Below are positions 3,232-59,458 of a stretch of 64,000 nucleotides of DNA, in pieces (position 1 is the stretch's first letter; the number at the start of each line of letters is the position of its first letter). The translations under genes and the position numbers were made by a program. Origin of the DNA: Notolepis coatsorum (taxonomy: Eukaryota > Chordata > Actinopteri > Aulopiformes > Paralepididae); NCBI GenBank assembly GCA_963971535.1, contig OZ020591.1, positions 18,400,823 through 18,464,822 of the forward strand, in the 5' to 3' direction. Below the pieces are notes generated by a model, which worked only from the letters and a program-made list of their open reading frames with translations, searched no databases and was not told the origin of the DNA.

Positions 3232-3286
3232 CTACAACAACACACAGTGACTGCATGTAGTCACTGTGTGTTGATGTTGTAGCCAC
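3232..3286. repeat. Short perfect hairpin near the fold-back centre
   Basis: gctacaacaacacacagtga and its reverse complement surround a loop of about six bases (gcatgt). It is a secondary palindrome inside the larger inverted repeat. Confidence 0.7.
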
Positions 3287-12204: not shown

Positions 12205-12362
12205 GGTGACACTTTCATCATCAAGTACCAGTGACAAGACATGTCTAACATACAAAAACAACACTGCCAGCCAAACTTGTCAATCTACAATTACTCTGGG
12301 GAGAGTGAACATTGTACTTTGCAAGACTCTTATTGTTACTGTTTTTTATCTGGTATTTTTAG

Positions 12363-12505: not shown

Positions 12506-12914
12506 GTAAGGCTCTAAAGGGTAAATCCATCTTCATGCAAAGACGAGGCGATCGTTCAAACTATATCCCCAATTGTTTTATGCATGTTTTTCCATGATTC
12601 CATTACCATCATTTTCAAGGTGACATAATACTGTGATGAATCTGAAGAAAATCTCCATATTCCAATAAATCTAACTTTATTTTAAACCTCACATGAAATG
12701 CAATTTTTTTTTATTGTATAAGATTTGCATTATATCACCAAAATAAATGGCCCATCAATCATTTCCAGCCATTTCAATTTACAGCCATTTCCAATTCCCC
12801 ATTACTACTAAATGGACCCTTGTCCCATTAAAACATGAGGAAAATGGAAAATGGTCAATAACGCTGGCGCCAGAAAGTAAAGATGGAAAAACAGCGTGGC
12901 AGTCAATGAGTTTA

Positions 12915-13660
12915 GCATAATTTCTATTTCAATCTTTATTTAATCTCGAAAGAACATTTACAATTATGTCGAGAGGTACAATACATAATACAAAAATAAT
13001 ATAGAAACAGAAAAGTAAATCATTTAAACAATTTAAATTAATTAAAACAAATGGTCGGCTATTATAGATTTAAACTGACCAATGGATACTCAAATGTTCA
13101 GTTTAAAGTGCTTTGCAAAAGATGTGTCGGGGGCACAGAAGCTAAAAGCAGATTTTCCTAATTCGGTGCAAACTCTGGGGACCTTAAGTGGCTTTATAGT
13201 AGAAGCAGCAGCATGTCTATAAACTGTGTCCATAATCCAAAACAAATAGCTTCAACAACCCTCCTTCTGCTAAGCGTAGGAACATAGGATTCGTTTCTGT
13301 ACAAAAAGCAGACCTTCTGTCGCAGATTACTTGCAAGGTTATCTACATGGCATTTAAATGTACATTTCTGATCAAGCCAGATGCCAAGGTATTTATATTC
13401 TTTAACTCTAAATAATAGACTCATTCACAGTAGATGCAGTATATGCAAATGTTCACAGATGTTAGATGTTAGAGAAGAGCATGAACTTTGTTTGGTTTGA
13501 GTACCAGTTTAAGATTAACAAGCGTATCCTGCAAAGTATTAAATGAGTTGTACATTTTTAATGGGTAGGAGTTGTACAGAGTCAACAACACAATAGACGA
13601 TAGTGTCATCCGCGTAGAGATGATCCTGACAATATAGGAGACAATATCATTAATATAAAA
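12915..13660 (-). pseudogene. LINE reverse-transcriptase fragment (YADD to thumb), block A copy
   Basis: Antisense pol remnant. Near 13590-13620 the minus strand encodes YADDTIVYCVVDS (catalytic YADD). At 13424-13194 it encodes VKEYKYLGIWLDQKCTFKCH and LRQKVCFLYRN, the usual block after the palm in L2/CR1-like LINEs. Frames change between the two parts. The same fragment is in block B at 58500-59240, so the insertion predates the duplication. Confidence 0.75.
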
Positions 13661-13670
13661 TAGTAGGCGT

Positions 13671-13883
13671 TAGGGATGCCCCGATCATGTTTTTTGCCAC
13701 CAATCACTGATCGTCTATGAGCCATATTGGCCGATACACTGCCGATACCGATAGTTTTTGGTTTTGTTATAGCATCTGGCAGTATTATACTGTAGGTCTA
13801 ACAGAGGCATTCTCAAAGTCCGGACTCCGGACTAAATTATCTAATCTAATCTTAGAAATTAAGTAAAGTGTACTTACTGGGTG
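13671..13883. mobile_element. Left part of a hAT MITE (tagggatgccccgatc end)
   Basis: Begins tagggatgccccgatcatg, a typical fish hAT terminus, with 'gccgatacactgccgatacc' inside. It is cut off by the TTAA MITE boundary; no right end was seen. Also present in block B from 59249. Confidence 0.6.
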
Positions 13884-24106: not shown

Positions 24107-24430
24107 TATCACTGATTTGTAGATCAATAGTAATTATATAATTATGATCTTATGGTATGGAAACTACATTTTCTCCTACAGGAGGAGGATGCTTTATGAC
24201 AACGTGGTAATGGATCAGACCACCTGTAGTCGATACTGATCACATGTAGCTAGTATCAGCCTGATAGCGGTATTGTGTATAGGATCTGTGCATCCCTATA
24301 TATTGGTTCAGCGTGTTCTTACTTTCCTCTTAAGAGTGTAGTGTGAAATATTGGCCTGAGCCTTTGTTACTTTCAAAAGCAATGGTTACAACAAATTACA
24401 TTTAAATGATTGTATGCCCTTCTTTCTAGA
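24107..24430 (+). other. Intron 3' part before the zinc-finger exon, with a hAT MITE end
   Basis: 24200-24298 reads like the right end of a hAT MITE ('gatctgtgcatcccta'). The last bases (tgcccttctttctag) form a pyrimidine-rich splice acceptor. No coding sequence was recognised in between. Confidence 0.5.
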
Positions 24431-26501
24431 CTCCATGGCCTTACAGCTGTTTGTCTGTGAAGAGGAGGTTCCCCCTGAGCAGCAGGAGAGGAGCCCCAGT
24501 CTGGTCCAGGAGGAGCCAGAGCGCCTACAGATTAAAGAGGAACAGGAGGAACTCTGGATCAGTCAGGAGGGAGAGGAGCTTCAAGGTCTGGAGGAGGCTG
24601 ATATCATCAAGTTCACTTTCAACCCTGTCCCTGTGAAGAGTGAAGATGATGAAGAGAAACCTCAGTCCTCACAGCTCAGCCAAACCCAGGACACAGAGCC
24701 CCTCCAGATTAAAGAGGAACAGGAGGAACTGTGGATCAGTCAGGAGGGAGAGGAGCTTCCCGTCTCTGTGAAGAGTGAACATAATGAAGAGAAACCTCAG
24801 TCCTCACAGCTCAGCCAAACCCAGGACACAGAGCTCCTCCAGATTAAAGAGGAACAGGAGGAACTGTGTCAAGATCTAGAGGAGGCTGATGGCTCCAAGA
24901 TGACCTTACAACCTATGAAATGTGAGAATGAAGGTGAGAACACTCTGTCCTCACAACTCAGCCAAAACCGGGACCCAGAGCAGATTAAAGATGAACTAGA
25001 TCAAGGGCTGGAAGAAGCTGATCTCTCCAAGATCACAGTAGACCCAGTGAAATGTGAAGATGGTCACGAGAACGCTCTGTCCTTCCAGCCTCTTCAAACC
25101 CAAAGGGAGAAAAACAGAGAAGCATACTCTTTACCCAGCACCTCAACTGAACACATGAAAACAGAACCTGAAGGAGAGGACTGTGGAGTAGCAGAACTAG
25201 CCAGTAACTTGGATCCAGCTGGTGATTTAGAACCAACTAGAGATAGCCAGCCTCTCTCTTCAGACTGTTCTGGACCTGAGACTGATGACAGTGATGATGA
25301 CAGTTCTGGAGCTGAGACTGATGACGGTGATGAATGGAAGGAGAGTGGAGGTCCAGGTTTGATGGCAGTAAAACAAAAGAAGACACAGAAAATACAAACC
25401 TTGTCTAACAGGTCTGGGTTCAGCAAGAAGAGGGATCTGAATATGCAAATAGAAAATCATACCGGAGTGAAACCATTTGTTTGTTCAGTTTGTGGGAAAG
25501 GGTTCAGTCGGCAAACGCGTCTGAAGACACACATGCAAATTCATACTGGAGAGAAACCATTTGTTTGTTCAGTTTGTGGGCAAGGGTTCAGTACAAAGGG
25601 AAATCTGAAGAGACACATGATAACTCATAATACTAGAGAGAAACCATTTGTTTGTTCAGTTTGTGGGAAAGGGTTCAGTACAAAGGGAAGTCTGAAGACA
25701 CACATGATGATTCATACTGGAGTGAAACCATTTAGTTGTTCAGTTTGTGGGAAAGGGTTCAGGCATAAAGAAACTATGATGATACACACAAGAGGTCATA
25801 CTGGAGAGAAACCATTTAGTTGTTCAGTTTGTGGAAAAGGATTCAATAGGAATGTGTGTCTGAAGAGACACACAAGAACTCATACCGGAGAGAAACCATT
25901 TAATTGTTCCGTTTGTGGGAAAGGGTTCAGTACGACGGGAGATCTGAAGAACCACATTAGAACTCACACTGGAGAGAAACCATTTAGTTGTTCAGTTTGT
26001 GGGAAAGGGTTCAGTCGGCAAACACATCTGAAGACACACATGAGAACTCACACTGGAGAGAAACCATTTAGTTGTTCCGTTTGTGGGAAAGGGTTCAGTA
26101 GGAAGGGAGATCTGAAGTTACACATGAGAATTCATACTGGAGAGAAACAATTTAGCTGTTCAGTTTGTGGGAAAGCATTCAGGCATAAAGAAACTATGAT
26201 GATACACACAAGAGGTCATACTGGAGAGAAACCATTTAGTTGTTCAGTTTGTGGAAAAGGATTCAATAGGAAGGTGTGTCTGAAGAGACACACAAGAACT
26301 CATACCGGAGAGAAACCATTTAATTGTTCCGTTTGTGGGGAAGGGTTCAGTACGACGGGAGATCTGAAGTTACACATGAGAATTCATACTGGAGAGAAAC
26401 AATTTAGCTGTTCAGTTTGTGGGAAAGCGTTCAGGCATAACGGAAATATGAAGATACACACTAGAACTCATACAGGAAAGAAACCATTTAGTTCCGTTTA
26501 A
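24431..26501 (+). CDS. C2H2 zinc-finger protein, terminal exon (12 fingers)
   Basis: Probable sequence-specific DNA-binding nuclear protein. The exon follows a splice acceptor (ttctttctag|actcc) and stays open to TAA at 26499. An in-frame ATG at 24435 or 24414 could also start it, but related fish genes have one or more upstream coding exons, so this is taken as the terminal exon. The N-terminal half is acidic, with three copies of an IKEEQEELW module and VKSE..EEKPQSSQLSQ segments. These resemble the acidic leader of many fish zinc-finger proteins and hold SUMO-type KxE words. The array (about 25475-26475) has 12 C-x2-C-x12-H-x3-H fingers joined by TGEKPF linkers; the linker after finger 2 is longer (NTREKPF). 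Fingers 4-6 and 9-11 are near-duplicates. There is no KRAB or BTB domain in the exon. Its DNA target and regulation are unknown. Confidence 0.9.
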
Positions 26502-31631: not shown

Positions 31632-32620
31632 TGGGCAGCATGGTTAGTGGTTAACACTTGTTTGTTTGTTTGTTTGTTTGTTTATTTACACATATAAAAA
31701 CAATTACATATATAATACAATATAATCCACAAGGGATGTGTAGGAGAATTGCCTAAAAACCCTCTAGGGGCTTGCATGTGGCATTCACTAGGAAGCAAAA
31801 TTACATTATATCAAGATAAAATCCCCCCCCCAACAAACAAACACACACAAGCAGGTCTACATAGACACCGAAGCAGGCACCCATGCCATAAGATTTCTGG
31901 TATAGAGAAAACAACTAATGACAGGAAGAATATATAATAAAACTAAAGTACAATAACAAAATACAACAAGCCATCAGACCACAGTTTGTAAATGAAGTCC
32001 ATGTGGGAAATATTGGTGCTCTAGGTCAGATGAGATTTCAGTGCTCTTTTGAATTTCAGAAAAGTAAATTCCAAAATATGTGGAGGCAAAGAGTTCCACA
32101 ACTTTGACCCTCGGTAGAGCAAACAAAACTGAGATTGGGAAGTGCGGAAACGGGGTGGTCTAAGCAAACAGGAACTACGTGTGGGGTAATTATGAATTTG
32201 GTGATTGTGGGCAAACATGTCATGAAAAAACACTGTCGCCTCACAGCTAGAAGGTCCTGGGTTTAATTCCCGCTTGGTGACCAGGTTGCCAGGTACCCAG
32301 GTGGGGTATCTCCCGGGCCTTTCTATATGGAGTTTGCATGTTGTCCCCGTGCTCGCAAGGGTTTCCCCTCCAGATAAGATAAACCCAAAGGAAAAAACAT
32401 GCAGAACAGATCGCTAACGCTGTCGCGTCCCTGACGAAGATGGACAGGAGCACTTGGGATTGGTCCCCGGGCGCGGCCCACGCCACAGCCCATGTCTGCT
32501 CCCGGCTGCCCTTGGGGGGAAGGACGACGGGATGGGAAAAGTGCAGAGACATTTCATCAGTGCATGTGTGTGTGAGTGTTCCTGTGTCTCGCATGTGTGT
32601 GTTCTTCTAAAAAAGTACAT
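31632..32620 (+). mobile_element. DANA/HE1-like SINE (SINE-B), copy 2, split by a LINE
   Basis: The head gggcagcatggttagtggtt (31635) is separated from the rest (cactgtcgcctcacagctag at 32231) by a LINE insertion. The remainder matches copy 1 to about 32620. Confidence 0.75.
31659..32228 (-). mobile_element. 5'-truncated LINE with (AAAC)n tail inserted in SINE-B
   Basis: Flanked by aacact (31653-31658 and 32229-32234). The tail is the (GTTT)n run at 31659-31681 on the + strand. Minus-strand codons at 32233-32021 give the pol C-terminus (NYPTRSSCLLRP, GSKLWNSLPPHI, FKRALKSHL) to a stop. It is truncated immediately upstream of this block. Confidence 0.85.
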
Positions 32621-32686
32621 GGGGTTTCTATTTAATATACTGAAAACTGTGTTTGGGGACCTGTTCTCTTTATTCTTTTCAAGTGT

Positions 32687-33680
32687 TCCACAAGGAAGCA
32701 TACTAGGACCGCTACTATTCATAATTTATGCAAATGACATGTCGTCAGCTTGTGACTGCAACTTGTTCCTGTTTGCGGACGACTCAGCCCTGCTGGTCTC
32801 TGACAAGAACAAGTTACAGGTTGAAAAAGCCCTCAGCTCAGAACTAGGCAAAATCTGCATATGGCTCACCGACAACAAACTATCATTACACATGGGCAAA
32901 ACAGAGTCCATTCTCTTCGGTTCAAATAACAAACTCAGCAAGACCGACGGCTTCTCGGTTACAGTGGGTGACAATATTGTCACAAGGAAAGATGAAATTA
33001 CCTACCTGGGTTCCATCCTAGAGGCTAATCTTTCCTGTGACAAAATGGCATCCAATGTAATAAAAAAAGTCAACCAACGAACTCGATTCTTGTACCGGAT
33101 CTCCTCTCTGGTAAACAAGAATACCCTGAAGACTAACAGGAGCACTCATTCAAGGGTACTACGACTATGCTTCCACCTCATGGTACCAAATCACCTCAAA
33201 AGGCACTAAAAACAAGATTACAAACATCACAAAACAAACTGGTCAGACTACTGCTTAACCTGACTCCTAGAACCCACCTCACCCCTGCCCACTTTGTCGT
33301 CTACTCTAAGCCATCCTAGGTTGTCAGAGTACAGCAACTTGCAATGGGCCTGGTCTACAAGATACACTACACGACCAAGGTACCCATGTACATGTCAAAA
33401 TGCACCTACCCGTCTATTAATCAGAGTTTCCAACGCCCGGCATTGTACTCTTAAACAGTACTGTATATTTGTAGATCTGGTATGTCATAAATGTCTGGAT
33501 GCAACAGTACTGTCTATCTGTATGTCATAAATGTCATTATGAATTGAAAATGGGGGACCCTGATGTAAACAAGACGAAAGGCTTTCTCTGGTCTGCATCC
33601 CCTTAACAATTGTGTGTATTGAGCCGTACTGTAATTGTACCCATTCTGCAATCTGTTAATACAATTTTCAATCAATCAAT
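32687..33680 (+). pseudogene. LINE-Q copy 7: reverse transcriptase with internal damage, 3' UTR and tail
   Basis: Opens in RT block B (VPQGSILGPLLFIIYANDM) and includes the catalytic LFLFADDSALLV (FADD variant) and KTESILFGS, then thumb-like TYLGSILEANLS. The frame breaks near 33130, and the sequence jumps from 'YPSINQSFQ'-type codons (about 33420) straight into the family 3' UTR, so the C-terminal codons are deleted. It ends in CAAT repeats. This is the only LINE-Q copy here with an RT core. Confidence 0.8.
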
Positions 33681-34541: not shown

Positions 34542-35724
34542 GTTATGTGGTTTTTCCCCCCTTTGGTACCAGTGCTGCCCAAACTTGAAAAACGGCTTGA
34601 AACGTCAACAGAGGACGCTGGGACAACTCGACTCCAATTTTGCAGATTTGAATGACTTCTCATGGTCCAACACATCATCATTCCAAACATGTTGTAGTCA
34701 TTGAAATCATGTTGAAGGTAGCATCATTGAATGTAGCATCATCAAAAGTAGCATCATCGAGAGTAGGTTGAAAACCTTTAAAAAAAAACACAACAATTAG
34801 CCACTCCACAAATAACAAGTTCATGCCAAATAATCAAATACACTTCCTTCAATTTGTAGTATTTTCAGTATATGATTATTTTTCCTTCCAAACACATTTA
34901 ATATTTTTTAGGCTATTTTACAGGCCAAATCAATTTGTTTGCATTTCAATTTAACCAAATTAATTTACCAACCTTCCAAATACATTTTACTTTAAATTTA
35001 AACAGACCAAATCAATTATGTTTGAATTTCATTTAACCAAACAATTGTTACTTGATCACAATGGACCAGATCCAACCCAAAGTACACAAAACAACTTGCC
35101 AAGTGGCATCCCCTCCTATCTAGTTACACCCAAACATTCATTAATTGGAATGATTCCCACAAAATTGCCACCAACCCAGCCCTCCACGGGTACAAATTAT
35201 AGTGATTTAAATGGACAATTACACAACTACAAACATACATACCAACATACCTTCCCCTGCACAATTTTTTTTTCTCTCTGCCTCTCCACTCCAAGATGGC
35301 ATTCACACCTGAATTGCATTGCTGCTCATTACCCCCTGCAGCAATCAACTCCCATCACAGCAGCTCAGGGTTGGCGGCCATCTTGTCATAAATCATACCC
35401 CTTAAAATGTATTAGGAAAAATTAACCCTTCCCACATTGTATATATAAATAATATACAATATAAAACAAACATAAATGTAGACATTGTCTTAACACTGCA
35501 TATGTTGGAGGCACAAGGCCAAAGCAAAGGCAACCTGATGGAGCCAAATACCTCCAGAAGCCCTCAGCACTCGCACGGCCCCAGACTATGATCTCAAATG
35601 CTACAGAGTACCCAGCGCTCACACAGAGACAGAGCACGGTCCCAAAGGCTACAGGGCCTCCATTATCTTTGTATAGAGACATATACAATCTGTTTCCAGG
35701 AACAACAGCAGTGAACAGAACAAC
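34542..35724. other. Non-coding gap between two BEL/Pao pieces
   Basis: Could hold LTR or leader sequence of the rearranged BEL/Pao element, but I found no paired LTR. A short tandem 'gtagcatcat' run lies at 34713-34760, and a 'accaaatcaatt' motif recurs between 34925 and 35015. Confidence 0.35.
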
Positions 35725-36870
35725 ATGATGTCTATTATGCAAAAACAAAACGACATCACTTCCATGTTGGTGCATCAGCAATGCATTGCTTCACTGCCTA
35801 AAAGAGACATCCAACCATTTGAAGGTGACCCTCTGCAGTACCATGGCTTTATGCAGTCCTTTGAACAGACCATAGAAAGGAGGACTGACAATGTTGTTGA
35901 TTGCCTGCACTATTTTGAGCAATGCACCAGGGGGCAGCCTAAACAACTAGTCAGAAGTTGTCAACACATGACTGATGGCACTGGAAATGCTACGGCGAAG
36001 GCTTTACTCCAGGAACACTTTGGAAATGAGCACGTCATAGCATCCGCTTACATGGACAAAATCTTTGCATGGCCAGCTATTAAGTCAGAGGATGGGAAAG
36101 CCTTACAAGCATACAGCCTATTTTTACGCGGATGCTGCAATGCCATGAAAAACGTGTATAACCTATGTGACCTGAACACATCTGCAAACATGCTTGCTGT
36201 CATCAAGAAGTTGCCCTACAAGCTGAGGGACAAGTGGCGAACAGAAGCATGTAACATCCAGGAAAGACATGGCAAACGTGTTATGTTTACTGATATTGTG
36301 ACTTTTGTTGAGCGTGAAGTGAAAATCGCTACAGACCCTGTATTTGGAGACATACAAGATGCTCCAATGATGGGGGATTTCAGGGAAAGTGGCAAAGCTA
36401 GACCTGTGCCTCGACTTCAGGCTAGAGGGAGTAGTTTTGCCACAACGTTCCCCACAATTGAAAGAGATGCTCATTGGGAAAACAGAATTAAGGAAGGATA
36501 TGAGGAGGCTTGCCTTTTCTGCAAAAAGGGTGGACACACACTGGAGTCGTGTACTCTATTGGAGAGGAGAGCTCACAGCGAGAAGATGGAGTTCCTGAAG
36601 GAGAATGGAGTTTGCTTTGGATGCTTGTGCACTGGGCACATCAGCAGAGAGTGCAGGGAACGTCTGTCTTGCAGGACATGTGGCTCACGACACCCCAGCT
36701 TGCTTCACTTCCACTCTAAGGAGAATGGAGATGCAGAGAAAGGCAGGAGCAACTCAGACAGAGCAGTGGACAGAACTCTAGTCGAAATCCATACCAGTGG
36801 CCTTACTGGGGCCGGTGATCAAGATTGCAAGCTTGCCATCGTACCAGTTAAAGTTAAATCAAGCAAAGGT
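35725..36870 (+). pseudogene. BEL/Pao gag fragment with zinc knuckles
   Basis: About 380 codons open with IQPFEGDPLQYHGFMQSFE (DUF1759-type gag core, near residue 30), then LRDKWRTEA, and end with three CCHC-like knuckles (CLFCKKGGHTLESC, CFGCLCTGHISREC, CRTCGSRHPSLLH). Reading continues to VPVKVKSSKG, just before the expected aspartic protease, then runs into an antisense LINE. Protease, RT and integrase are absent. It differs clearly from the BEL/Pao element at 48877. Confidence 0.8.
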
Positions 36871-37827
36871 CAGGTGAATGTCCAGCAGCACAACTTCAAC
36901 TTTATCAACCAGGTCTGTCCTGACAGTAAAATTAATATCATTTCTCACAAAAGCACAGACCCCCCCTCCGTTACGACTGCGATCCTTTCTGACTACAGAG
37001 TAATTGGGTTTTTCCATTTCTTAATCACGGATACTGGGATCAAGCCAGGTCTCTGTAAAACAAATAACTCCCACCTTTGTTTTATAAGCCAGCAGACGAA
37101 TCTCATCGATCTTTGGTGGTAAGCTCCTCACATTCAGGTGCATGAAGTGAAGTCCTTTCGGCCTGAAGACTTCTTCTTGGCTCGAGTTGCTGCTGTAGCC
37201 TGGACTAGGCCTGGTGGTGGAGCTGCTGTAGCCTGGACTAGGCCTGGTGGTGGAGCTGCTGTAGCCTGGACTAGGCCTAGTGGTGGAGCTGCTGCTGTAG
37301 CCTGGACTAGGCCTAGTGGTGGAGCTGCTGCTGTAGCCTGGACTAGGCCTGGTGGTGGAGCTGCTGCTGTAGCCTGGACTAGGCCTGGTGGTGGAGCTGC
37401 TGCTGTAGCCTGGACTAGGCCTGGTGGTGCAGCTGCTGTAGCCTGGACTAGGCCTGGTGGTGGAGCTGCTGCTGTAGCCTGGACTAGGCCTGGTGGTGGA
37501 GCTGCTGCTGTAGCCTGGACTAGGCCTGGTGGTGGAGCTGCTGCTGTAGCCTGGACTAGGCCTGGTGGTGGAGCTGCTGCTGTAGCCTGGACTAGGCCTG
37601 GTGGTGGAGCTGCTGCTGTAGCCTGGACTAGGCCTGGTGGTGGAGCTGCTGCTGTAGCCTGGACTAGGCCTGGTGGTGGAGCTGCTGCTGTAGCCTGGAC
37701 TAGGCCTGGTGGTGGAGCTGTAGCCTGGACTAGGCCTGGTGGTGGAGCTGCTGCTGTAGCCTGGACTAGGCCTGGTGGTGGAGCTGTAGCCTAGACTAGG
37801 CCTGGTGGTGGAGCTGGACATGGTCAG
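36863..37827 (-). pseudogene. LINE 5' segment: apurinic endonuclease start with coding minisatellite, inverted
   Basis: Minus-strand frame with a repeated SSTTRPSPGYS segment, then the endonuclease opening FMHLNVRSLPPKIDEIR and VICFTETWLDPSI. After a stop, more endonuclease-like codons follow (NGGGVCAFVRNDINF). The segment ends at the join with the BEL/Pao gag. Directly beyond 37827 a LINE-Q 3' end runs in the opposite direction. That arrangement fits twin priming, or two unrelated LINE pieces. Confidence 0.65.
37180..37812. repeat. 36/33-bp minisatellite, about 18 units, within a LINE frame
   Basis: Units 'tagcctggactaggcctggt' + 'ggtggagctgctgctg' of 30, 33 or 36 bases, always a multiple of three. 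The minus strand reads SSSTTRPSPGYS repeats that stay open and join the endonuclease codons. Confidence 0.92.
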
Positions 37828-46449: not shown

Positions 46450-47259
46450 AAGTCATCATTCAATTCACCTTCTGTGTGTGTGCGCGCGTTTGAAAAGATC
46501 GGATGAAGTCAGACGAGTATATTTTATTGATACTAAATGTACTGAGGGTGGACGGATAATGTTGATATTTAAACATAAAAAATACAATACATAATAAATG
46601 TATTCATGATCATCATGCAACATAAAACAATTGCAGGAACGGTTTGGGGAGAGGAGTTTTAGGTTGCGTGTTCCAAAAAAAATTACTTAAAGTTTAAAGC
46701 TCAATATATCAAAACGTGGCACTTTATAGTGAACAGGAGGTCTATTTGTATTAAAAACAATATATGTTTTCATTTAAATGTCTGCAAGAACTCAAATCTT
46801 TTTTTTCAAATTATATTTTTGTTACCTTTTTTGAGTTGATCTTTGTTACTGATTGTGTTAAATGGGCTTATGATATCATCTCATATCGATTGCAGGCACC
46901 TGCATTGTATCGTATCGTGGCAGATATCGGCAAATATCGTATCGTTGTCCAAAGAATCGGTATCGTATCGTGATGAAACTGGTGATTCCCACCCCTAGTA
47001 GAGTCCATACACCCAACACCAAATCCCATAATTCCTTACACGTAACGTGTCTGGCTGTGTGACGTCAACTTGTCAGCATGAAAATGACAGCCAAACATGG
47101 CACTGCAACTAAATAACACAAATACAATAGGCATATTTGTGACTGTTACAAATATAACACGTTTTATACTTGTGCTACAAGAATTTGGCCTGTGCTACAA
47201 AACGATCAACCTCTGTAGCACCAGTGCTATGTGCAAAAAAAGTTAACGTACAGCCCTGT
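46450..47259. other. Stretch with two hAT right ends
   Basis: 'caccagtttcatcacgat'-type sequence runs to a terminus 'ttcccacccctag' at about 46998. A second hAT-like end 'gttaacgtacagccctg' lies at 47243-47259, directly before block B. Their left ends were not found. Confidence 0.5.
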
Positions 47260-48876
47260 TATAAGACATTGATATCAGGAGCTATCTGTAGCTACTGCTA
47301 GCCGGCTAGATGACGTTAGATAATGCATCATGTATTAAATAAAGTGAACTATTTAGTTTACTGGGTCATTTCATTAAAACAGTGAGCTAACGTGAGCTAC
47401 CTAGCTAACGGAGGTATCATGCTGCCCGATCGATCGGCACGGGGCATCCCTATCATTCTTAAACTGATGCTGAAATGAAACTAAATGCTTCAGAGTGACA
47501 TGATGTTTTGAACTAGTCTCAGTGTGACGTAGTTACTAAATGGTTCAGAGTGACATGATGTGTTGAACTAGTCTCAGTGTGAGGTAGTCACTAAATGCTT
47601 CAGAGTGATATGATGTGTTGAACTAGTCTCAGTGTGACGTAGTCACTAAATGCTTCAGAGTGACATGATGTGTTGAACTAGTCTCAGTGTGAGGTAGTCA
47701 CTAAATGCTGGGTCTTGAAGCATAGAAAACGAGGCACGATGTTTTCTGCTGTGGATGATTAAAACTTCTGCCAGGTCAGAACTCCGACCACAAGACTCTG
47801 TGTAAACTCGGGGCACTGCATCATAGGGCTGGGCGATATGACCAAAAACGTTATTGCGATAAAATTATAAAATTTTCATATAACTCGATATCGATAATTA
47901 TCGTCGATGTAATGTCTGTCAAGTTTAATTAACTTCTTATGCTGCTGCGAATGTCTCGAGTCGAGTTGATGTCGTCATCAGTCCGCGCACGTTAGCAGTT
48001 AGCCGACAAGCGGAGTATCTCATGACAATGTAATAAATATGACCCTAAAATACTCTCTTCCACCCCAATATATTGAAACGACGTCCACTGTATACCCCAC
48101 ACTACTATAAACGTGGCCTCAGAATTCACGCCACACACATACTCGGCACGTAAATATATAAAACAGCGCCGTGCAAGCTAGTTATCCTAGCCAGCCTGTT
48201 GTTTCTAAGCGGTGTATTCCATGACAATGTACTAAATATGACACTAAAATACTCTCTTCCGCCACAATATATTGAAACGACGTCCACTGTATACCCCACA
48301 CTACTATAAACGTGGCCTCAGAATTCACGCCACACACATTGTTACAAAGGGTCAGATTAAACCGAATATATATATTTATTACTTGAGATACCTTGTATAA
48401 TATTTGTATATCGTCTGATATCCCTTGTATATTCTTTGTATATATACACGGAATATCCCTTTACCTAGGTACAGGCCAGACCTTAATATTCGTTCTCCTA
48501 TTGGACAGCGACCCCTAGGCGCCAACGGCCATACCCCCAATGGCAAGTTCAAAACCACCGCCAAGGCATGTCTCAACATGTCCAGGTTTGCGCAGTAATA
48601 CGAGACAGAACTGAGGTTGGCACTAGATTATTCACCTTACGTATAAATACGTCGCAGGTGGATACAGCAGTAGTCTTATCCTAAAAGTTGAGTACCTAAA
48701 CGTTGAAGCCTTCACCACGATACAACGTGCCGTGAAGTGGGCCTCTTTGCCCCTGAATAGAGCCTTGAGAACCGCGTGCGAATAGATAGCTAAAGTGTCA
48801 GAGTTTAACGCTGTATCGTCGAGTTCGACTTATTCTATTGTGAAGTAATAGTCTATTATTTATAGTGTATCGTGCG

Positions 48877-49626
48877 TGTAGTGAAGCTCTTGTGGTTAGG
48901 AAAGGTAGTCAACAACACGGGGTGTCTAGTCAGGACACGGGAGGCAGGAACGTTCTTTGATGAGTTTTATTATCAATGGTCAGACAGATGATGCACAGGC
49001 GATTTCTACTTCTATTTGTGAGTGTGTGTGTGTGTGGTTCTACATGGGGAGGAAACAAAGACATCAGCGTTACTAGTACTCATTAATCAGTCTGTTATAT
49101 ACTATACAATATACTGTTGCTACAAGTAACATAAACCTCACGAGTGGAATTACCAATGGGGATAAGCAGTGCTTTACCTATACTAGTTACAGGGATAAAC
49201 TGTGCTAAACAGATACTAGATACTATACTCAACAACATAGATTATACCCAATAGGCTAGATTATCACTATAAACATACTGGTAAATTGCTTCCTAAACAG
49301 CTGGTAGAATTATAACATTAGTATAGGCCTTAACCATATAAATCACCAACAATAACTAAGCGTCCTCATCATACACATATTTAACACTTACTTGTGATCA
49401 GGGACGCACACATGAACTGAAGGAATCTCTAAGCCCACTAGTATATATGGATGCTGGCTATCGACAGACATGTCTAGACATGTCTGAGGCATCCTGCTGC
49501 AGAACAGCAGAGCAGCCCCCCACAGCCTTTATGTCTGACTGAGAGGCGTCCCGCTGCAGAGCAGCAGAACAGCAGCACAGCACCCCACAGTCCTTATGTC
49601 TGCCCAGTCCTTGGGCCTTTTGTACA
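48877..49626 (-). repeat. 3' LTR of the BEL/Pao element
   Basis: 750 bp, tgtagtgaag...ttgtaca. Contains a minus-strand aataaa near 48968. It differs from the other LTR by an extra 10-bp unit ('tagacatgtc' at about 49470) and two bases in a GT run. Confidence 0.93.
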
Positions 49627-49650
49627 GCCGCCCCCTAATCCACGGTGTGG
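49627..49650 (-). other. Polypurine tract of the BEL/Pao element
   Basis: The minus strand reads ggattagggggcggc immediately before the 3' LTR; it primes plus-strand synthesis in LTR elements. Confidence 0.75.
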
Positions 49651-49668
49651 ATTAGTTCATGGAAAGGC

Positions 49669-52600
49669 TCAACTGTCTTCCGGAGTCGTTGTCGGGGCGT
49701 CCTCTGGGATGGCTGGTAACTCAATAAGCTTGGCCACTGGTCTGGTGTAGGTCCTATCGTCCACCTGCACCTCTGCAGACCGCACCTTCCCGTCGGCACT
49801 CCTGATGGTCTTCGTGACCCGTCCTACAGGCCACAGTGCTCTAGGTAGCCTCTGGTCAATCACCATCACCACCGTGCCGACAGTGAGGTTCTCTGTGTCC
49901 TTCACCCATTTCTGCCTGGACTGCAAGGAGGGTAGGTAGTTATGCAGGAAGTGGGTCCAGAACTGGTCGGCTAACACCTGACTGTGTCGCCATCTTCTCC
50001 GGCTGAGGATTTCGGATTCAGGGTACACCACTGGAGGGAGTGAGGAGTCGGGCCGCCCCATGAGGAGGTAGTTGGGGGTCACCGCGTCCACGTCGGCTAC
50101 ATCTGTCGACACATATCCCAGCGGCTTGGAGTTGAGGATTCCTTCTACCTCAGTCAGTACTGTCCGCAGGACTTCTTCGGTCACTGTCTGTGCTCCAAGA
50201 GAAACGTAGAGTGCAGCCTTGATGGACTTGACTTCCCGCTCCCAGGCCCCGCCAAAGTGGGGTGCATTTGGGGGGTTGAACTGGAAGCGGATCTGGCGCT
50301 TTGCCAGTTGGGTCTGCAGCTCTTTACCCATGTTCTGGAAACTTGCTCTGAGCTCCGATTCTCCTCCACGGAAGTTGGTCCCACGGTCGGAGAGGAGTTC
50401 GAAGGGGTTTCCTCGTCGTGCCACAAACCTTCTGAGCGACATAAGGAATGAGTCGGTATCCATGTTGTGTAGCACGTCTAGGTGGACACACCTAGTGGTC
50501 ATACACTTGAAAACTATTCCCCATCTTTTCTCAGTACCCCGACCTCGCTTGACCTGAAACGGGCCGAAGCAATCCACTCCTGTTGAGTAGAATGGAGGCT
50601 TCATGAGGCGGAGACGGCATGGGGGCAGATCTGCCATCTTGGGAATAGACGGCTTTGCCCTCCACTTTTGGCACTCCGGGCATAATCGCTGATGGCGGCG
50701 CACTGCTTCACGCCCTCTGAGGATCCAGAACTTGCGCCGGAGTTCAGCAAAGACCCTCTCGGCTCCAGGATGGAGTAGCTTGTTGTCGTACTGTCGTATG
50801 ATGAGCTTAGTGACAGGATGCTTGGGTTCTAGCAGGATCGGGTGCACAGTGTCTTCCTCCAGGCTGGTGGAACGGCGCAACCTACCGCCTACGCGGATAA
50901 GGCCTTTAGGTACATCGTACTCTGGGGCAAGTGCCAGGAGCCTACTGTTTGGTGGAATCACTTTCCCGGTTTGTAGGCACTTGATTTCTTCTGAGAAGCT
51001 ATCACCTTGTGCTCTCTGAAGGATTCTGAGTTCTGCCTCGGCATAGTCGTCCGCACTGGGGGCACTTGACGGAGACGCCGCCCCGTGCAGTGATCTACTT
51101 GTGGCCTCAAGGAGGTCTTCGAAGGTGGAATGGTCTTCTGTGGTTGGGGTCTTTGGAGCTGAAAGGGTTGAAGTGAGGCCACAGAACACAGGCTTCCTTG
51201 TCTCCGTCTCATCCAGAGCTTCTGTGACCGAGGGTCTGAGTGGCCAACCGGTGCGTGGTCGTTGGAGGAAGGCGGGACCATGACTAAACTGATTTGGCTT
51301 GGCTAGGTCAGACACTGTCATTCCTCTGGTGATAGTGTCTGCTGGGTTATTCTTTGTGTCCACGTACCTCCATGACCGGTGGTCGGTCAGTTCTTGTATC
51401 TCAGATACGCGGGTCCCGACGAACACCTTGTATCGGCATGACTCGGACTGTATCCAGGTAAGCACTGTGGTGGAGTCGGACCACAACACCGCCTCTTTCA
51501 ACTTAAGAGTGAGCTCTCTCTGGATCAGTTGGGCAAGTTGGGCTCCTGTCAGAGCGGCACAAAGCTCGAGGCGGGGTATTGACTGTTGTTTTTTCGGTGC
51601 TACTCTAGAGCGAGCTAGCATGAAGGATACGTGGACCTGGCCTTGGAGGTCTTCGCCACGCAGGTAGGCGACTGACCCATAGGCGGACTCGGAAGCATCA
51701 CAGAAGACGTGGAGCTCGAGGGTGAGCGCACTTACGTCGACGTCTGGTGGGAAGTAGCACCGGGAGAGGCTGACTGTTGGGAGCTGTGGGAGCTCTTCTT
51801 CCCATGTGGTCCAGGCTTGCAGGATATCGGCCGGTAAGTGTGGGTCATCCCAGTCGCGGTCTTTGGCCCATAGTTTCTGGACCAAGACTTTGGCCCTTGT
51901 GGTGAAGGGCACGATGCGACCTAGGGGGTCATACTGGCTTGCTAGTATCTTGTAGATGTTTCTCATAGTCGTCTGGCTTGGGGAGACCGGGCGATGTTTG
52001 TAGTGGAGCGTGTCCTCCATGAAGTGCCAACTGAGTCCTAGTGTCATTTCTTGAGCTTCCCCGTGGGTCTGGGAGACCCATCTCTCACTGCTATCTGCCT
52101 TGGCCTCTTTGGGCAGGTTGCCGATCACCTCTGGCTGGTTGCTGGCCCACTGGCGGATCTCGAAGCCGCCTGTGGCTAGGAGGGCTCTCAGCTTGTTCAC
52201 GAGGCTGCTTGCCTCTTCTTTGGTGGGCAGACTCTGCAGACAGTTATCCACATAGAAACACTGTTCTACACTGTGGCGAACATCCTCTTGGCTAGACTCG
52301 ATGACGTGTTTCTGGAGGGCAAAGGTTGCACAGCAGGGGCTGCATGTTGTCCCGAAGGGCAGGACCTCCCACTGGTACACTGATGGAGGTTCGTCTGTCT
52401 TTAGGTTCCTCCAGAGGAACCTCAGTAGGGGCTTGTCTCTGTCCAACAGGCGAACCTGATGGAACATTCCCTTGATGTCCCCACTTATGGCGACTCGATG
52501 CTCTCTGAATCGCAGGAGGACTCCAAGGAGTGAGGGTCCCAGTGTTGGGCCTGGAAGGAGGTAGTTGTTCAGGTTCTGCCCGCCGTACTGGAAACTGCAG

Positions 52601-54024
52601 TTGAAGACAATCCGGTCTTTGCCGTTGTGCCTGACCATGTGATGGGGCAGGAACCATGACTCTTCAGATGCGTCGGCCTGGCTGGGGTTAATCTTGGTGA
52701 TGTACCCAGCTATCTCTAGCTTATTGATCTCCTCTTGGTAGGTAGATGCACGCTGTGGATCTTGAGTTAGCCTCTTCTCTGTGTTCCGCAGGTTCTTCAT
52801 TACAACTTCCTTTGAAACTTGCAGCTTGGGCATGGTTTGGACTCGCAGGAGGGGGGTGGCATACCGCTGCACTCCGTTGACCTCTACACGGGTGGTCTCG
52901 GCCTCCAACAGCTCCGCTGAGTACTTGTCCTGTTTGGATCTGTTCACTAACCTCTCGCTCTTGAAAGGCAGTGTATCCAGCTGCCACAGCCGTTCGACTT
53001 GGCTGAATAGCTCGGCAGCCGGGGAGGGAGCAGCAGTGAAGAAGCACTGGGTGGTCTGAAGCTGTTGCTGCATGTACTTTGCTGGGCCTTGGAGTGTCCA
53101 GCCGAGGTTAGTCTTGACTGCCGCAGGGCCACCGTGGGGGCCCAGATGCACCGGCTCGATCGGTACAATCAGGTTGGCGTGATCAGATCCAATCAGGAGG
53201 GTTGGCTGAGCTCCGTCGATTGGTGGAATCACCAAGCCTCGCAGATGGCGATACTTCTCCTGGAGCTGGGTGACTGGGTAGCTGTACTGAGACAGACCTA
53301 GCTGTTCACCGGTGAAGGCACCTTGAATAGGGAACCTTTTCCTTGGTTCGGATACTGGGGCAATGGCGAAGGAGACACGTGAGCCTGACAGGGTCTTGAC
53401 GTCTTGGCGGATAGTGCGAAGGGTCAAGTCTTCCGCTTGACCCTGTATTCCCAGGTGGCGTGCTGCTGAAGCGAGCAGGATGGTTCTCTCTGAGCCATCA
53501 TCCAGCACTGCGTAGGTGTTGAAGACTCTGTCCATGTAGTGCAGGTTGACTCTGACGATCTTCAGGAGCACTCGGTTGTATCCGTTTGGCTGATCCAGGT
53601 AGTGAGTCTCTGCTGTTGAGGTGATGGTGGGCTCGTTCCCACTCCTCTGGTTAACCTCATGCAGGACGGAGAGGTGTTTGGACTTACAGAGTCGACACGG
53701 CTTCTTCAGGTCGCAGGCAGAGGCTAGGTGAGGACGACCGCATCTCCAACACCTTCTCTTGGCTTTGATCCAGTCCACTATCTCCCCTCTGGTCAGCTTA
53801 GCGAAGCGTTCGCATTGGCTGAGGTAGTGTTCTGACTCGCAGTAGGGGCAGTATATCCTTCCCTTCCCTTGGGTCTGGACAGGTTGATATACCTTGGAGG
53901 GCCTTTCGGGTGGAGGATCTTGGGGGTTGTCTGTACCATGCATCACCGTAGTGACCTTTATCTTGGTGCTGATACTTGGGGTCTCTCCTGTCATTCTCAC
54001 TGTGAGCATGAAGGGAGGGCTCAA
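49669..54024 (-). CDS. BEL/Pao Pol polyprotein (knuckles, protease, RT, RNase H, integrase)
   Basis: 1451 codons without a stop. The order is: CCHC-like knuckles (CPYCESEHYLSQC near residue 59, CWRCGRPHLASAC near 92); aspartic protease motif LDDGSERT near 175; RT with the BEL-type active site YVDN near 590; RNase H-like region with FCDASESAYG; zinc-binding integrase region ending CPECQKW; integrase core with GVDCFGPF near 1148, LSDRGTNF near 1212 and GGAWEREVKS near 1257 (DDE triad positions); C-terminal DUF5641-like tail. The ATG at 54024 is likely not the true start: related elements read through from gag, and here the upstream gag codons (to about 54000) are in another frame. Confidence 0.93.
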   Translation of the reverse strand: MSPPFMLTVRMTGETPSISTKIKVTTVMHGTDNPQDPPPERPSKVYQPVQTQGKGRIYCPYCESEHYLSQCERFAKLTRGEIVDWIKAKRRCWRCGRPHLASACDLKKPCRLCKSKHLSVLHEVNQRSGNEPTITSTAETHYLDQPNGYNRVLLKIVRVNLHYMDRVFNTYAVLDDGSERTILLASAARHLGIQGQAEDLTLRTIRQDVKTLSGSRVSFAIAPVSEPRKRFPIQGAFTGEQLGLSQYSYPVTQLQEKYRHLRGLVIPPIDGAQPTLLIGSDHANLIVPIEPVHLGPHGGPAAVKTNLGWTLQGPAKYMQQQLQTTQCFFTAAPSPAAELFSQVERLWQLDTLPFKSERLVNRSKQDKYSAELLEAETTRVEVNGVQRYATPLLRVQTMPKLQVSKEVVMKNLRNTEKRLTQDPQRASTYQEEINKLEIAGYITKINPSQADASEESWFLPHHMVRHNGKDRIVFNCSFQYGGQNLNNYLLPGPTLGPSLLGVLLRFREHRVAISGDIKGMFHQVRLLDRDKPLLRFLWRNLKTDEPPSVYQWEVLPFGTTCSPCCATFALQKHVIESSQEDVRHSVEQCFYVDNCLQSLPTKEEASSLVNKLRALLATGGFEIRQWASNQPEVIGNLPKEAKADSSERWVSQTHGEAQEMTLGLSWHFMEDTLHYKHRPVSPSQTTMRNIYKILASQYDPLGRIVPFTTRAKVLVQKLWAKDRDWDDPHLPADILQAWTTWEEELPQLPTVSLSRCYFPPDVDVSALTLELHVFCDASESAYGSVAYLRGEDLQGQVHVSFMLARSRVAPKKQQSIPRLELCAALTGAQLAQLIQRELTLKLKEAVLWSDSTTVLTWIQSESCRYKVFVGTRVSEIQELTDHRSWRYVDTKNNPADTITRGMTVSDLAKPNQFSHGPAFLQRPRTGWPLRPSVTEALDETETRKPVFCGLTSTLSAPKTPTTEDHSTFEDLLEATSRSLHGAASPSSAPSADDYAEAELRILQRAQGDSFSEEIKCLQTGKVIPPNSRLLALAPEYDVPKGLIRVGGRLRRSTSLEEDTVHPILLEPKHPVTKLIIRQYDNKLLHPGAERVFAELRRKFWILRGREAVRRHQRLCPECQKWRAKPSIPKMADLPPCRLRLMKPPFYSTGVDCFGPFQVKRGRGTEKRWGIVFKCMTTRCVHLDVLHNMDTDSFLMSLRRFVARRGNPFELLSDRGTNFRGGESELRASFQNMGKELQTQLAKRQIRFQFNPPNAPHFGGAWEREVKSIKAALYVSLGAQTVTEEVLRTVLTEVEGILNSKPLGYVSTDVADVDAVTPNYLLMGRPDSSLPPVVYPESEILSRRRWRHSQVLADQFWTHFLHNYLPSLQSRQKWVKDTENLTVGTVVMVIDQRLPRALWPVGRVTKTIRSADGKVRSAEVQVDDRTYTRPVAKLIELPAIPEDAPTTTPEDS

Positions 54025-54162
54025 TGTCCAGGCATCTGACTTCTACCCTCAGCCACTCTGCGAAGTCGGTGAGGGACAGCTTTGTCTTGTCTGGGTTCTC
54101 CCTGTACTGTTGACGACGGAACCTCTCTTGTTGGTGTTTGGGAAGCCTGTTGAGGAGGCTGG
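54000..54162 (-). pseudogene. BEL/Pao gag 3' segment between LINE insertion and pol
   Basis: Codons LPKHQQERFRRQQYREN and LTDFAEWLRVEVRCLDIE continue gag. They stand in a different frame from pol, which overlaps below 54024. Either a one-base indel or a frameshift signal separates gag and pol; the single copy cannot decide. Confidence 0.75.
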
Positions 54163-54284
54163 TGTAAACAAGACGAAAGTCTTTCTCTGGTCTGCATCCC
54201 CTTAACAATTGTATGTATTGAGATGTACTGTACTGTACCCATTCTGCAATCTGTTAATAAACTTTTCAATCAATCAATCAATCA
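54163..54284 (+). mobile_element. LINE-Q copy 11, tail inserted in BEL/Pao gag
   Basis: A 120-bp 3' UTR with (CAAT)n tail, opposite in strand to gag. It separates the gag codons NVKRL from SLLNRLPKH and introduces a stop. Confidence 0.9.
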
Positions 54285-55835
54285 AAGGCGCTTCACGTTT
54301 GAGCCACAATGGAGTTCCTCGTGACCTTCGCCTTGAAGGGACCTCAGCATCCCGACCAGCGACTGCACTCTGATGGCGAATTCGTCGAGGGCTCTATCGT
54401 CTCGAATGGGTGGTAAGCGTTCCATGTCCTCTATCTCCTTCAGAGCGAACTGGTATGGGCGTCCGTATCGCTCGTCCAGTGCCCTCAGAGCTTCAGAGTA
54501 GGGCATACTTGACTCTGCGTAAGCCAGCACCAGGCGGTGGGCACGCGGCACCTTTATATGCTTCAGCAGAATGGCATACTTGTAGTGCTCGGAATGGGAA
54601 GGATTGAGGAGTGTACTGAGGGAAAGGCGTAGTTCCACGTATTGGGCTCTATCCTCCTTGTTAAAGTCCGGGAATGTTGGACCTTCTATATTGGGGGGTG
54701 CATGCTGGTATACTGTGGAGGGATATGGTGTCGCTATGACTGGGTTCCCTTGGTAGGCGAGGTAGGGCACATACGGAGGTTGGTGTGCTGACTGGTGTGC
54801 AGACTGAGGCAGGTGCTGATGCATGGGTTGCTGCATGACCTGAGGTGTCGCCCAGGTTGGTGGCGGGTAACTCTGCTGAGGCTCATTCCTTTCCTCGTAC
54901 TTGCGGCTAGGCGGAGCCACATTGGATGTGCTTCGTGGGTTCGGGTAGGAGGTCGGTGGCCAGTATGAGGGTCCGCTTCTTGCCAGGCCCTCTGATTGCG
55001 GCGGGTTCTGGGTTGGCCTATTGGGCTGGCTGGGCTGACGAGGGGAGCCTTGGTTATGTTGGTTCTCCTGCTTGCAAGCCTGAAGGCCGTGGGGTACTTC
55101 GATTGCACGTTGGAGGGGGTGAGTGGCTCGGCTGAGAGGTGGGGGAAGTGTCCACTCTGGCTCATGGATACTCAAATCTTCTAGCTGGGCGGTTAGTTCT
55201 GCAGCCATACTTAGGTGATCCTCGTCTGGGGAATAGTGAGGTGCACGGGCAGGGGAGAACTGCGGTTTGCCTACTCTTTCTGGGTGGAGTTGGCGGACTG
55301 GAGTCTGTTGCCGTGATGACCTCCTTGACGACTGAGCTGAGGGTCGGGAGGAATGGTGCTGCAGAACAAGCTCCACTGCAGCTATACTTGGGTGATCCTC
55401 GGCTGGGGAGTAGTGAGGTGCACGGGCAGGGGAGACCTGCGTTTCACCTACTCTTTCTGGGTGGAGTTGGCGAACTGGAGTCTGATGCCGTGATGACCTC
55501 CTTGATGACTGAGCTGAGGATCGGGAGGAATGGTGCTGCAGAACAAGCTCCAAAAGCTCTGTTTGCTTCTGAGCCGTCTCACTCTGTTGCCGCGCAGTCT
55601 CCAGAACTTGGTGCATTATTGTTTCGTGCACATTCTGCATTGGTGGCATGGGGGATGTGCCTCTAGCGGGACTGGGCTGTGCTTTATCCTCTTCATGCCT
55701 GCGCAGCTGCTCTGTGTCACGCTGGCGTGTACTGTCCACTAGGTAATCGTCTAGCCATCTCGGGCGCTGCACGGTGCGTCTGGGGCGCACGGATGGTGAA
55801 GCGGGGAGGCTCATCCCTCCTTGACTGGTTGCCAT
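54285..55835 (-). CDS. BEL/Pao Gag, interrupted at its C-terminus
   Basis: About 517 codons from ATG at 55835. The start MATSQGGMSLPASPSVRPRR is followed by a Gln/Ser/Pro-rich linker with an exact-looking duplication of about 60 residues (ELVLQHHSSR...SSAQSSRRSSR..., residues near 98 and 157). Then comes a DUF1759-type core near residue 395 (GPTFPDFNKEDRAQYVELRL, YGRPYQFALKEIEDMERLPP). The chain runs into the LINE-Q tail. No start other than this ATG is plausible, because the primer-binding site lies 12 bases upstream. Confidence 0.88.
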
Positions 55836-55846
55836 ATCGTTGACTC

Positions 55847-55865
55847 TATCCGGTTCGAAGGACCA
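55847..55865 (-). other. Primer-binding site matching tRNA-Tyr 3' end
   Basis: Two bases inside the 5' LTR, the + strand reads tatccggttcgaaggacca. This equals the 3' end of vertebrate tRNA-Tyr (..ccggctcgaagga plus CCA) except for one base. The match is from known tRNA sequence; no search was run. Confidence 0.8.
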
Positions 55866-55867
55866 TT

Positions 55868-56609
55868 TGTAGTGAAGCTCTTGTGGTTAGGAAAGGTAGT
55901 CAACAACACGGGGTGTCTAGTCAGGACACGGGAGGCAGGAACGTTCTTTGATGAGTTTTATTATCAATGGTCAGACAGATGATGCACAGGCGATTTCTAC
56001 TTCTATTTGTGAGAGTGTGTGTGTGTGTGGTTCTACATGGGGAGGAAACAAAGACATCAGCGTTACTAGTACTCATTAATCAGTCTGTTATATACTATAC
56101 AATATACTGTTGCTACAAGTAACATAAACCTCACGAGTGGAATTACCAATGGGGATAAGCAGTGCTTTACCTATACTAGTTACAGGGATAAACTGTGCTA
56201 AACAGATACTAGATACTATACTCAACAACATAGATTATACCCAATAGGCTAGATTATCACTATAAACATACTGGTAAATTGCTTCCTAAACAGCTGGTAG
56301 AATTATAACATTAGTATAGGCCTTAACCATATAAATCACCAACAATAACTAAGCGTCCTCATCATACACATATTTAACACTTACTTGTGATCAGGGACGC
56401 ACACATGAACTGAAGGAATCTCTAAGCCCACTAGTATATATGGATGCTGGCTATCGACAGACATGTCTGAGGCATCCTGCTGCAGAACAGCAGAGCAGCC
56501 CCCCACAGCCTTTATGTCTGACTGAGAGGCGTCCCGCTGCAGAGCAGCAGAACAGCAGCACAGCACCCCACAGTCCTTATGTCTGCCCAGTCCTTGGGCC
56601 TTTTGTACA
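55868..56609 (-). repeat. 5' LTR of the BEL/Pao element
   Basis: 742 bp with the same termini as the other LTR. The minus-strand promoter would lie here, but no core element is certain. Confidence 0.93.
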
Positions 56610-57908
56610 GTGCGGCTACCGTTCTCCGTGACCATCATTACCACCGGTTCGTCGTATCTCTAGCTAGTGCACTTATCCAGGCTAGGCGGCCTAAACTCGC
56701 GCCACCACCCGAGGAGTCCTAGACGAGAACCGTTGGATATGTACACCGGAGAACCTACACCGGCGAATGCAGAGCCTTTTCCGGCTGGATTATATTGCTT
56801 TGGTACTGTGGCTGCTGGAGCAGAGAACCGTCTACCCCACTGCTGTGTGGGATCTACCCTGTGAGGAGCACCATCGAGCCCGCCTCTAGGACCACAGAGG
56901 CTGGCTAGCTTTCTTCCATGCTGTCGTGCATACTGGAGTATAGCTGTTGCTTTGTCTACGGACCAAGGGATTACTGCACTGGCTCCTGTATCTGGAGCCT
57001 CGTTATTCCGCGTTGATCCAGACTTTGCTCCCGAACATTCCTCTACCCTGCTGGCTTACAACCGGAGGGAACCCCTTAGTGTCTCCAGCTGACTACTAGT
57101 GTGCCTTATGTAATTCTTATGCTACAGGTGGCGTCAGTTATACCCATCTTACTATGCTCATGGACTTACGCTCTTGACTTACTTAAGTGTTCTTCGCCTT
57201 ACAAGCGCAATCATAATTCTCAATCTGTAACCTACCGTTGCTGCTCTAATAATAAATACCTCTAAATAGAACTTTCTTTGTCAAGCCGTATTCTTGTGTG
57301 GGTGTTCACCAGATATACCGTGTACTGTATGGCCAGTAATTAAAGTACATAACTAAGTAGTGGTTTAATGATACCATACTCTCAATACAGTCAGGGAATT
57401 GTACCCCTCAGTTACACACATACTCGGCACGTAAATATATAAAACAGCGCCGTGCAAGCTAATTAGCCTAGCAAGCCTTGTTGTTGAGTCCTACCTCTGG
57501 GTCTCCTTCCGGGTCTCCTTCGCTCTCGGCCATCTCCTTCACTGATTGGTTGTTAGTGCGTGTGCTCATATCCAAGCTTGGAAAATCGATATATCGAAAC
57601 TTTGCGACCACGTTTCATGTTTATTTCGAGGAAATAATTTATCGCGATAGTTATCGTTATCGTTTTATCGCCCAGCCCTACTGCATCAACTATACTACTT
57701 TAGTATTTCATACCACTTGATGTCCAAAACTCTAAACTATCCCTTTAAGGTGACACTTTCATCATCAAGTACCAGTGACAAGACATGTCTAACATAAAAA
57801 AAAAAAAACACTGCCAGCCAAACCTGTCATCTACAATTACTCTGGGGAGAGTGAACATTGTACTTTGCAAGACTCTTATTGTTACTGTTTTTTATCTGGT
57901 ATTTTTAG

Positions 57909-58053
57909 GCCACAGCCCCACTGATATCCAGTACAGTGGAGGAGATGGCGTCTTGCAGTCACCCCTCTCTGTTGGGACTAAAGGAAGTATCTGTCTGCTT
58001 GGTGGACTGCATTAAAACACCAGGACTTAAAGGAACTGTGAATGAAGGAGGAG
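57909..58053 (+). CDS. Small candidate first coding exon, open copy (block B)
   Basis: Acceptor ...tggtatttttag|gccac, ATG at 57945, 36 codons plus one base (phase 1), then donor ggag|gtaagg at 58053/58054. The peptide includes LLGLKEVSVCLVDCIKTPGL and ends in an acidic-looking GTVNEGG. VSVxLVDCxKT is a segment I associate with N-terminal exons of some fish C2H2 zinc-finger proteins; that is memory, not a search. No matching zinc-finger exon lies downstream within the window, so the rest of the gene, if it exists, is beyond 64000. Block A carries a frame-broken copy. Expression is unproven. Confidence 0.45.
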
Positions 58054-58497
58054 GTAAGGCTCTAAAGGGTAAATCCATCTTCAGTGTTCATACAGATGCT
58101 TGAAACAAATCATGCAAAGACAAGGCGATCGTTCAAACTATATCCCCAATTGTTTTATGCATGTTTTTCCATGATTCCATTACCATCATTTTCAAGGTGA
58201 CATAATACTGTGATGAATCTGAAGAAAATCTCCACATTCCAATAAATCTAACTTTATTTTAAACCTCACATGAAATGCAATTTTTTTTATTGTATAAGAT
58301 TTGCATTATATCACCAAAATAAATGGCCCATCAATCATTTACAGCCATTTCAATTTACAGCAATTTCCAATTCCCCATTACTACTAAATGGACCCTTGTC
58401 CCATTAAAACATAAGGAAAATGGAAAGTGGTCAATAACGCTGGCGCCAGAAATTAAAGATGGAAAAACAGCGTGGCAGTCAATGAGTTTAGCATAAT

Positions 58498-59240
58498 TTC
58501 TATTTCAATCTTTATTTAATCTCGAAAGAACATTTACAATTATGTCGAGAGGTACAATACATAATCCAAAAATAATATAGAAACAGAAAAGTAAATCATT
58601 TAAACAATTTAAATTAATTAAAACAAATAGTCGGCTATTATAGATTTAAACTGACCAATGGATACTCAAATGTTCAGTTTAAAGTGCTTTGCAAAAGATG
58701 TGTCGGGGGCACAGAAGCTAAAAGCAGATTTTCCTAATTCAGTGCAAACTCTGGGGACCTTAAGTGGCTTTATAGTAGAAGCAGCAGCATGTCTATAAAC
58801 TGTGTCCATAATCCAAAACAAATAGCTTCAACAACCCTCCTTCTGCTAAGCGTAGGAACATAGGATTAGTTTCTGTACAAAAAGTGGACCTTCTGTCGCA
58901 GATGACTTGCAAGGTTATCTACATGGCATTTAAATGTACATTTCTGATCAAGCCAGATGCCAAGGTATTTATATTCTTTAACTCTAAATAATAGACTCAT
59001 TCACAGTAGATGCAGTATATGCAAATGTTCACAGATGTTAGATGTTAGAGAAGAGCATGAACTTTGTTTGGTTTGAGTACCAGTTTAAGATTAACAAGCG
59101 TATTCTGCAAAGTATTAAATGAGAGTTGTACATTTTTAATGGGTAGGAGTTGTACAGAGTAAACAACACAATAGACGATAGTGTCATCCGCATAGAGATG
59201 ATCCTGACAATATAGGAGACAATATCATTCATATAAAATA
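58498..59240 (-). pseudogene. LINE reverse-transcriptase fragment, block B copy
   Basis: Same fragment as 12915-13660, with extra disabling changes: the YKYLGIWLD block is present near 58985 and the YADD region near 59185 (now MRMTLSS-type frame). Shared ancestry with block A. Confidence 0.7.
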
Positions 59241-59248
59241 TTAGGCAT

Positions 59249-59458
59249 TAGGGATGCCCCGATCACGTTTTTTGCCACCAATCACTGATCGTCTATGAGC
59301 CATATCGGCTGATACACTGCCGATACCGATCGTTTTTGGTTTTGTTATAGCAGCTGGCAGTATTATACTGTAGGTCTAACAGAGGCATTCTCAAAGTCCG
59401 GACTCCGGACTAAATGATCTAATCTAATCTTAGAAATTAAGTAAAGTGTACTTACTGG
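59249..59458. mobile_element. Left part of a hAT MITE (tagggatgccccgatc), block B copy
   Basis: Matches 13671-13880 and is cut by the next hAT insertion. Confidence 0.6.

Follow-up and report, generated by a model that had tools for sequence, protein, structure and literature searches.

The 64-kb window analysed here, that is, the whole stretch of DNA under study, contains a nest of four insertions placed one within another at 47824-57680, in which a hAT-type element holds a solo LTR, the LTR holds a BEL/Pao retrotransposon, and the retrotransposon holds the 3' end of a LINE. The best explanation of this arrangement is ordinary sequential transposition into one site, to which we assign a probability of roughly 0.93. 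The order hAT, LTR, BEL and LINE follows from the nesting together with the empty sites detected in relatives. Indeed, rejoining of the flanks at each target duplication, the outcome on which the original prediction had staked its refutation, was borne out at the four inner layers, since flanks joined in this way were recovered in 11/11, 3/3, 19/19 and 19/19 uninterrupted loci, respectively. All searches were performed against the same 3.42-Gb assembly from which the window derives, with 40 candidates scored and 12-30 loci cut out in each case. Regarding the duplications themselves, those proposed for the hAT, LTR and BEL layers were verified in the sequence, and in a chance control exact flanks of 4, 5 and 8 bases were found in 869, 256 and 8 of 200,000 random site pairs of the window. 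Young, high-copy elements are a usual cause of misjoins, which could raise the suspicion that the nest brings together pieces that lie apart in the genome; nevertheless, the four exact target duplications and a window without any N make such an assembly artefact extremely unlikely.

The nest lies within a repeated block. Comparison of the window with itself by BLAST revealed that the block at 10950-13880 (forward strand, without the nest; hereafter copy 1) recurs at 47257-59458 on the same strand with approximately 10 kb of extra DNA (the nest-interrupted copy 2). The K2P distance between the two copies was 0.018 over 1742 sites in the right part and 0.015 over 201 sites in the left part, and reached 0.042 over 271 sites in the core of the MITE, whose tandem units render the alignment uncertain. 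According to the original prediction, this was a gene block duplicated once, whose uninterrupted paralogue would allow the order of events to be fixed and in which every layer could be dated. Copy 1 does hold an empty hAT site, as this version demands, but several results make it very improbable. A first look at the assembly returned 2547 candidates for the block, and the 40 that were scored gave 53 matches; the block thus belongs to a large family spread across the genome, and not to a pair of duplicates. Eleven block loci were cut out of the 40 scored (L054-L064, L059 being copy 1), and in the resulting 12-row tree copy 2, L054, L058, copy 1 and the group L055-L057 emerged from a single open fork. 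The number of sites that differ from copy 2 is 11 of 706 for copy 1, 10 of 738 for L054 and 10 of 719 for L057. Since other block copies equal copy 1 in their closeness to copy 2, the simple two-copy version is refuted, and in this comparison of sequences copy 1 does not stand out as the closest relative of copy 2. Furthermore, an LTR pair suitable for dating is present in the BEL element only, so that the claim of datable layers throughout was overstated, and the left end of the MITE is absent from copy 2.

The best relative of copy 2 among the loci cut out varies along its length, being L057 for the left part (98.6% identity) and L054 for the right part (97.9%), and conversion between block copies may therefore blur the age of the block. 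Four changes in 736 columns are private to copy 2, whose end branch in the 12-row tree measures 0.0070. Genome-wide, copies of the block segment 57681-58680 occur in clusters, as illustrated by five places with 95-98% identity in C29:1.20-1.48 Mb. An exon-like frame with AG/GT borders is open in copy 2 (57909-58053), whereas its counterpart in copy 1 (12363-12505) is 2 bases shorter and has a broken frame; a Pfam search with the frame at 57909-58052 yielded no family.

The outermost layer corresponds to a TTAA MITE. Elements of the piggyBac type are characterised by TTAA ends and terminal inverted repeats, and both features are present in the complete element of copy 1 (11639-12204, forward strand). 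Unlike these elements, the nest holds a remnant only, which extends on the forward strand from a repeat array at 47480-47709 to the right end at 57748 (47480-57748). In copy 2 the left end is missing together with around 0.7 kb; the left terminal motif was found once in the window (11639), and the right motif twice (12193 and 57737). As a consequence, the duplication of the MITE offers no means of excising it from the nest, and the proposal that this layer could be peeled off as the others is not supported. The presence of the MITE in other block copies places it before the remaining layers. It would already have been present in the amplified block family, and its left end was lost in copy 2.

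The hAT-type layer (47824-57680, forward strand) comprises 775 bp of its own sequence, with perfect 15-bp terminal repeats, and is flanked by an exact 8-bp duplication, CTGCATCA, at 47816-47823 and 57681-57688. Non-autonomous hAT-type elements are known for 8-bp target duplications and short terminal inverted repeats. The element shares both features and is assigned to this type on the basis of its duplication length and terminal repeats; it departs from the general description in having an internal 199-bp unit, of which two copies exist here, in the stretches 48008-48339 and 57417-57488 taken together. In some other genome copies this unit matches several times close together. The identity of the element with the other genome places scored was 97-98%. 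In all 11 other block loci, copy 1 included, the two flanks of the element meet with an overlap of exactly 8 bp, and the empty target site predicted in copy 1 was confirmed as a single CTGCATCA at 12137-12144 on the forward strand. The element would have inserted in the MITE in the lineage leading to this one block copy.

Inside the hAT element lies a solo LTR (48340-57416, forward strand) whose own sequence amounts to 1339 bp; it has TG...CA ends and an exact CACAT duplication (48335-48339 and 57417-57421). The arms flanking it are contiguous in the 3 hAT copies fetched out of the 40 scored; of the 8 bases that overlap in these copies, 5 are accounted for by the duplication and 3 by a chance agreement with the end of the LTR. 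Similarly, no interruption is seen in the sister 199-bp unit within this hAT element, with 186 of 199 sites identical (93.5%). This layer consists of a single LTR with its target duplication, yet the family also occurs as pairs around coding DNA. Among 40 scored places, five same-strand pairs were detected 7.8-8.0 kb apart, and the DNA between one such pair contains RVT_1, Peptidase_A17, Integrase_H2C2 and DUF5641 (2 of the 5 pieces searched gave no Pfam family). The reverse transcriptase piece located between these LTRs and its counterpart in the inner BEL element share 71% identity over 168 residues. The LTR pairs, the pol domains and the similarity in reverse transcriptase together indicate that the LTR layer, left unclassified in the original prediction, represents a second, related BEL/Pao family (family B), and hence that, as judged from these similarities, the inner BEL element (family A) inserted in the LTR of a relative. 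Other solo-looking members carry their own exact 5-bp duplication (6 of the 19 other LTR loci). In comparison with these 19 loci, 4 of 1323 columns are private to the nest LTR; L003 and L017, two LTR copies truncated further right, were kept in this alignment, and leaving them out gave 4 of 1328 columns against 17 loci. According to this reading, a family B element would have inserted in the hAT element, and LTR-LTR recombination would have reduced it to a solo LTR, either before or after the insertion of family A.

The family A element (48877-56609, reverse strand, 7733 bp) is bounded by an exact GTGCG duplication (48872-48876 and 56610-56614), and its 3' LTR (48877-49626) and 5' LTR (55868-56609) both lie on the reverse strand. 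The halves of the LTR in which it resides are contiguous, with an exact 5-bp overlap, in 19/19 other LTR loci (40 scored). An open frame of 1457 codons on the reverse strand (49669-54042) contains pol; when searched against Pfam in six pieces, four of them returned a family, namely RVT_1, Peptidase_A17, Integrase_H2C2 and DUF5641, and the match to PF05380, a Pao-type pol domain, reached an E value of 3.1e-48. No match at E 0.01 was obtained between the reverse transcriptase piece and solved structures. The LTR pair with TG...CA ends, the short exact target duplication and these pol domains identify the element as BEL/Pao. With the BEL/Pao retrotransposons described in PMC3118150, whose superfamilies include Dan, Sinbad and Suzu, among others, it shares the Peptidase_A17, RVT_1 and integrase zinc-binding domains, the LTR pair and the 5-bp duplication, but differs in that its gag is broken. 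The gag frame (54282-55886, reverse strand), recognised by frame analysis and by its protein relatives, is cut short by the LINE tail, with a further frame change near 54.0 kb judged by eye; a Pfam search with this frame returned no family. Five relatives of the gag protein were found, the three named ones belonging to the fishes Misgurnus, Cirrhinus and Labeo; the host is likely a ray-finned fish. Two of the related fish proteins (P0001 and P0002) are continuous across the LINE site, whereas P0005 is devoid of that stretch. A 177-bp tandem duplication with 93% identity was also observed within gag (55199-55552). Elsewhere in the window, a second, different gag-like frame (DUF1759) lies at 35677-37122, and an array of tandem repeats comes after it (37184-37816).

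Several data point to the youth of family A. The two LTRs show 0 substitutions over 740 sites and 2 indels amounting together to 12 columns, with a 95% upper bound for divergence of 0.40%. As described in PMC7251063, gene conversion can homogenise LTR pairs and confer apparent youth; in plants, according to the same source, about one fourth of nested elements have LTRs that are more diverged than those of the elements surrounding them. In addition, 7 of 40 scored places (this locus included) are identical to a 411-bp gag query, and the family thus appears to have spread very recently in the genome. Whether the spread is still going on, with family A transposing in the species and both its insertion and that of the LINE polymorphic between individuals as part of an ongoing burst, can be entertained tentatively, at somewhat below even odds.

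The innermost layer is a 126-bp LINE 3' end devoid of reverse transcriptase (54160-54285, forward strand), a putative member of the Q clade according to the original prediction. It is flanked by a 4-bp AGGC duplication at 54156-54159 and 54286-54289, which that prediction did not mention. A 4-bp duplication is weak evidence by itself, and the insertion rests on the empty site in other copies: in 19/19 other BEL loci (40 scored), the gag flanks are contiguous with an exact 4-bp overlap. One of these loci, L080, contains a 33-base LINE-like match elsewhere, not at the gag site. The tail might alternatively have arrived inside the BEL element, being already present in the source copy, in which case there would have been no separate event. 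In favour of this, two changes appeared to be private to the nest tail among 10 window copies (113 columns), a number that seemed high given the youth of the host element. Nevertheless, two other genome copies are identical to the tail over 123 and 120 bp, implying that these changes are not private to the nest copy. Moreover, the LINE occupies this gag site in 0/19 other BEL loci, the gag flanks surround 0/29 other LINE loci, and among the best 40 candidates no other BEL copy was found to share this junction with the LINE. Arrival within BEL, now highly improbable, was accordingly dropped in favour of a separate insertion of the LINE. Another nine copies of the LINE 3' end could be aligned in the window, near 1370, 2953, 3604, 15492, 29188, 33538, 38329, 40818 and 46316. 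Elsewhere in the window, a reverse transcriptase frame (RVT_1) is located at 32418-33206.

In the favoured sequence of successive insertions, the arrival of the hAT element in the MITE and of family B in the hAT element would have been followed by the insertion of family A in the family B LTR and, finally, by that of a 5'-truncated LINE in the gag of family A. The private changes recorded for the block (4/736) and the LTR (4/1323), and the substitutions between the BEL LTRs (0/740), fit this order, as far as sequence counts too few to separate the steps allow; the order is proven by the nesting and not by divergence values.

Such nests are frequent and their formation is well understood, the layers described here belong to known kinds of elements, and both the ordering of nests and the dating of LTR elements within them are established procedures. 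In REANNOTATE (PMC2672092), clusters of nested transposable elements are ordered, complete LTR elements are dated and the ages of surrounding and inner elements are bounded accordingly, with segmental duplications carrying differing inserts named as a case for indirect dating. The present locus resembles the clusters treated there in its order derived from nesting, its LTR dating and its duplications with differing inserts, and differs from them in being a single locus of a probable fish genome and in that the LTR of one BEL family hosts an element of another, related one. No publication describing this locus was found among the matches listed, as judged by title and the beginning of the abstract. 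The nest does not change any general idea, consisting of ordinary transposon stratigraphy and recent BEL activity. It provides a worked case in which four successive insertions are each checked against uninterrupted relatives of the same genome, and points to a BEL/Pao family having been active very recently in a 3.42-Gb genome.

Scans of the 64-kb window with Rfam and for tRNAs returned nothing. Additional features of the window include a C2H2 zinc-finger frame at 24360-26501 and a pair of inverted repeats at 2806-3263 and 3433-3897, which are 92% identical.
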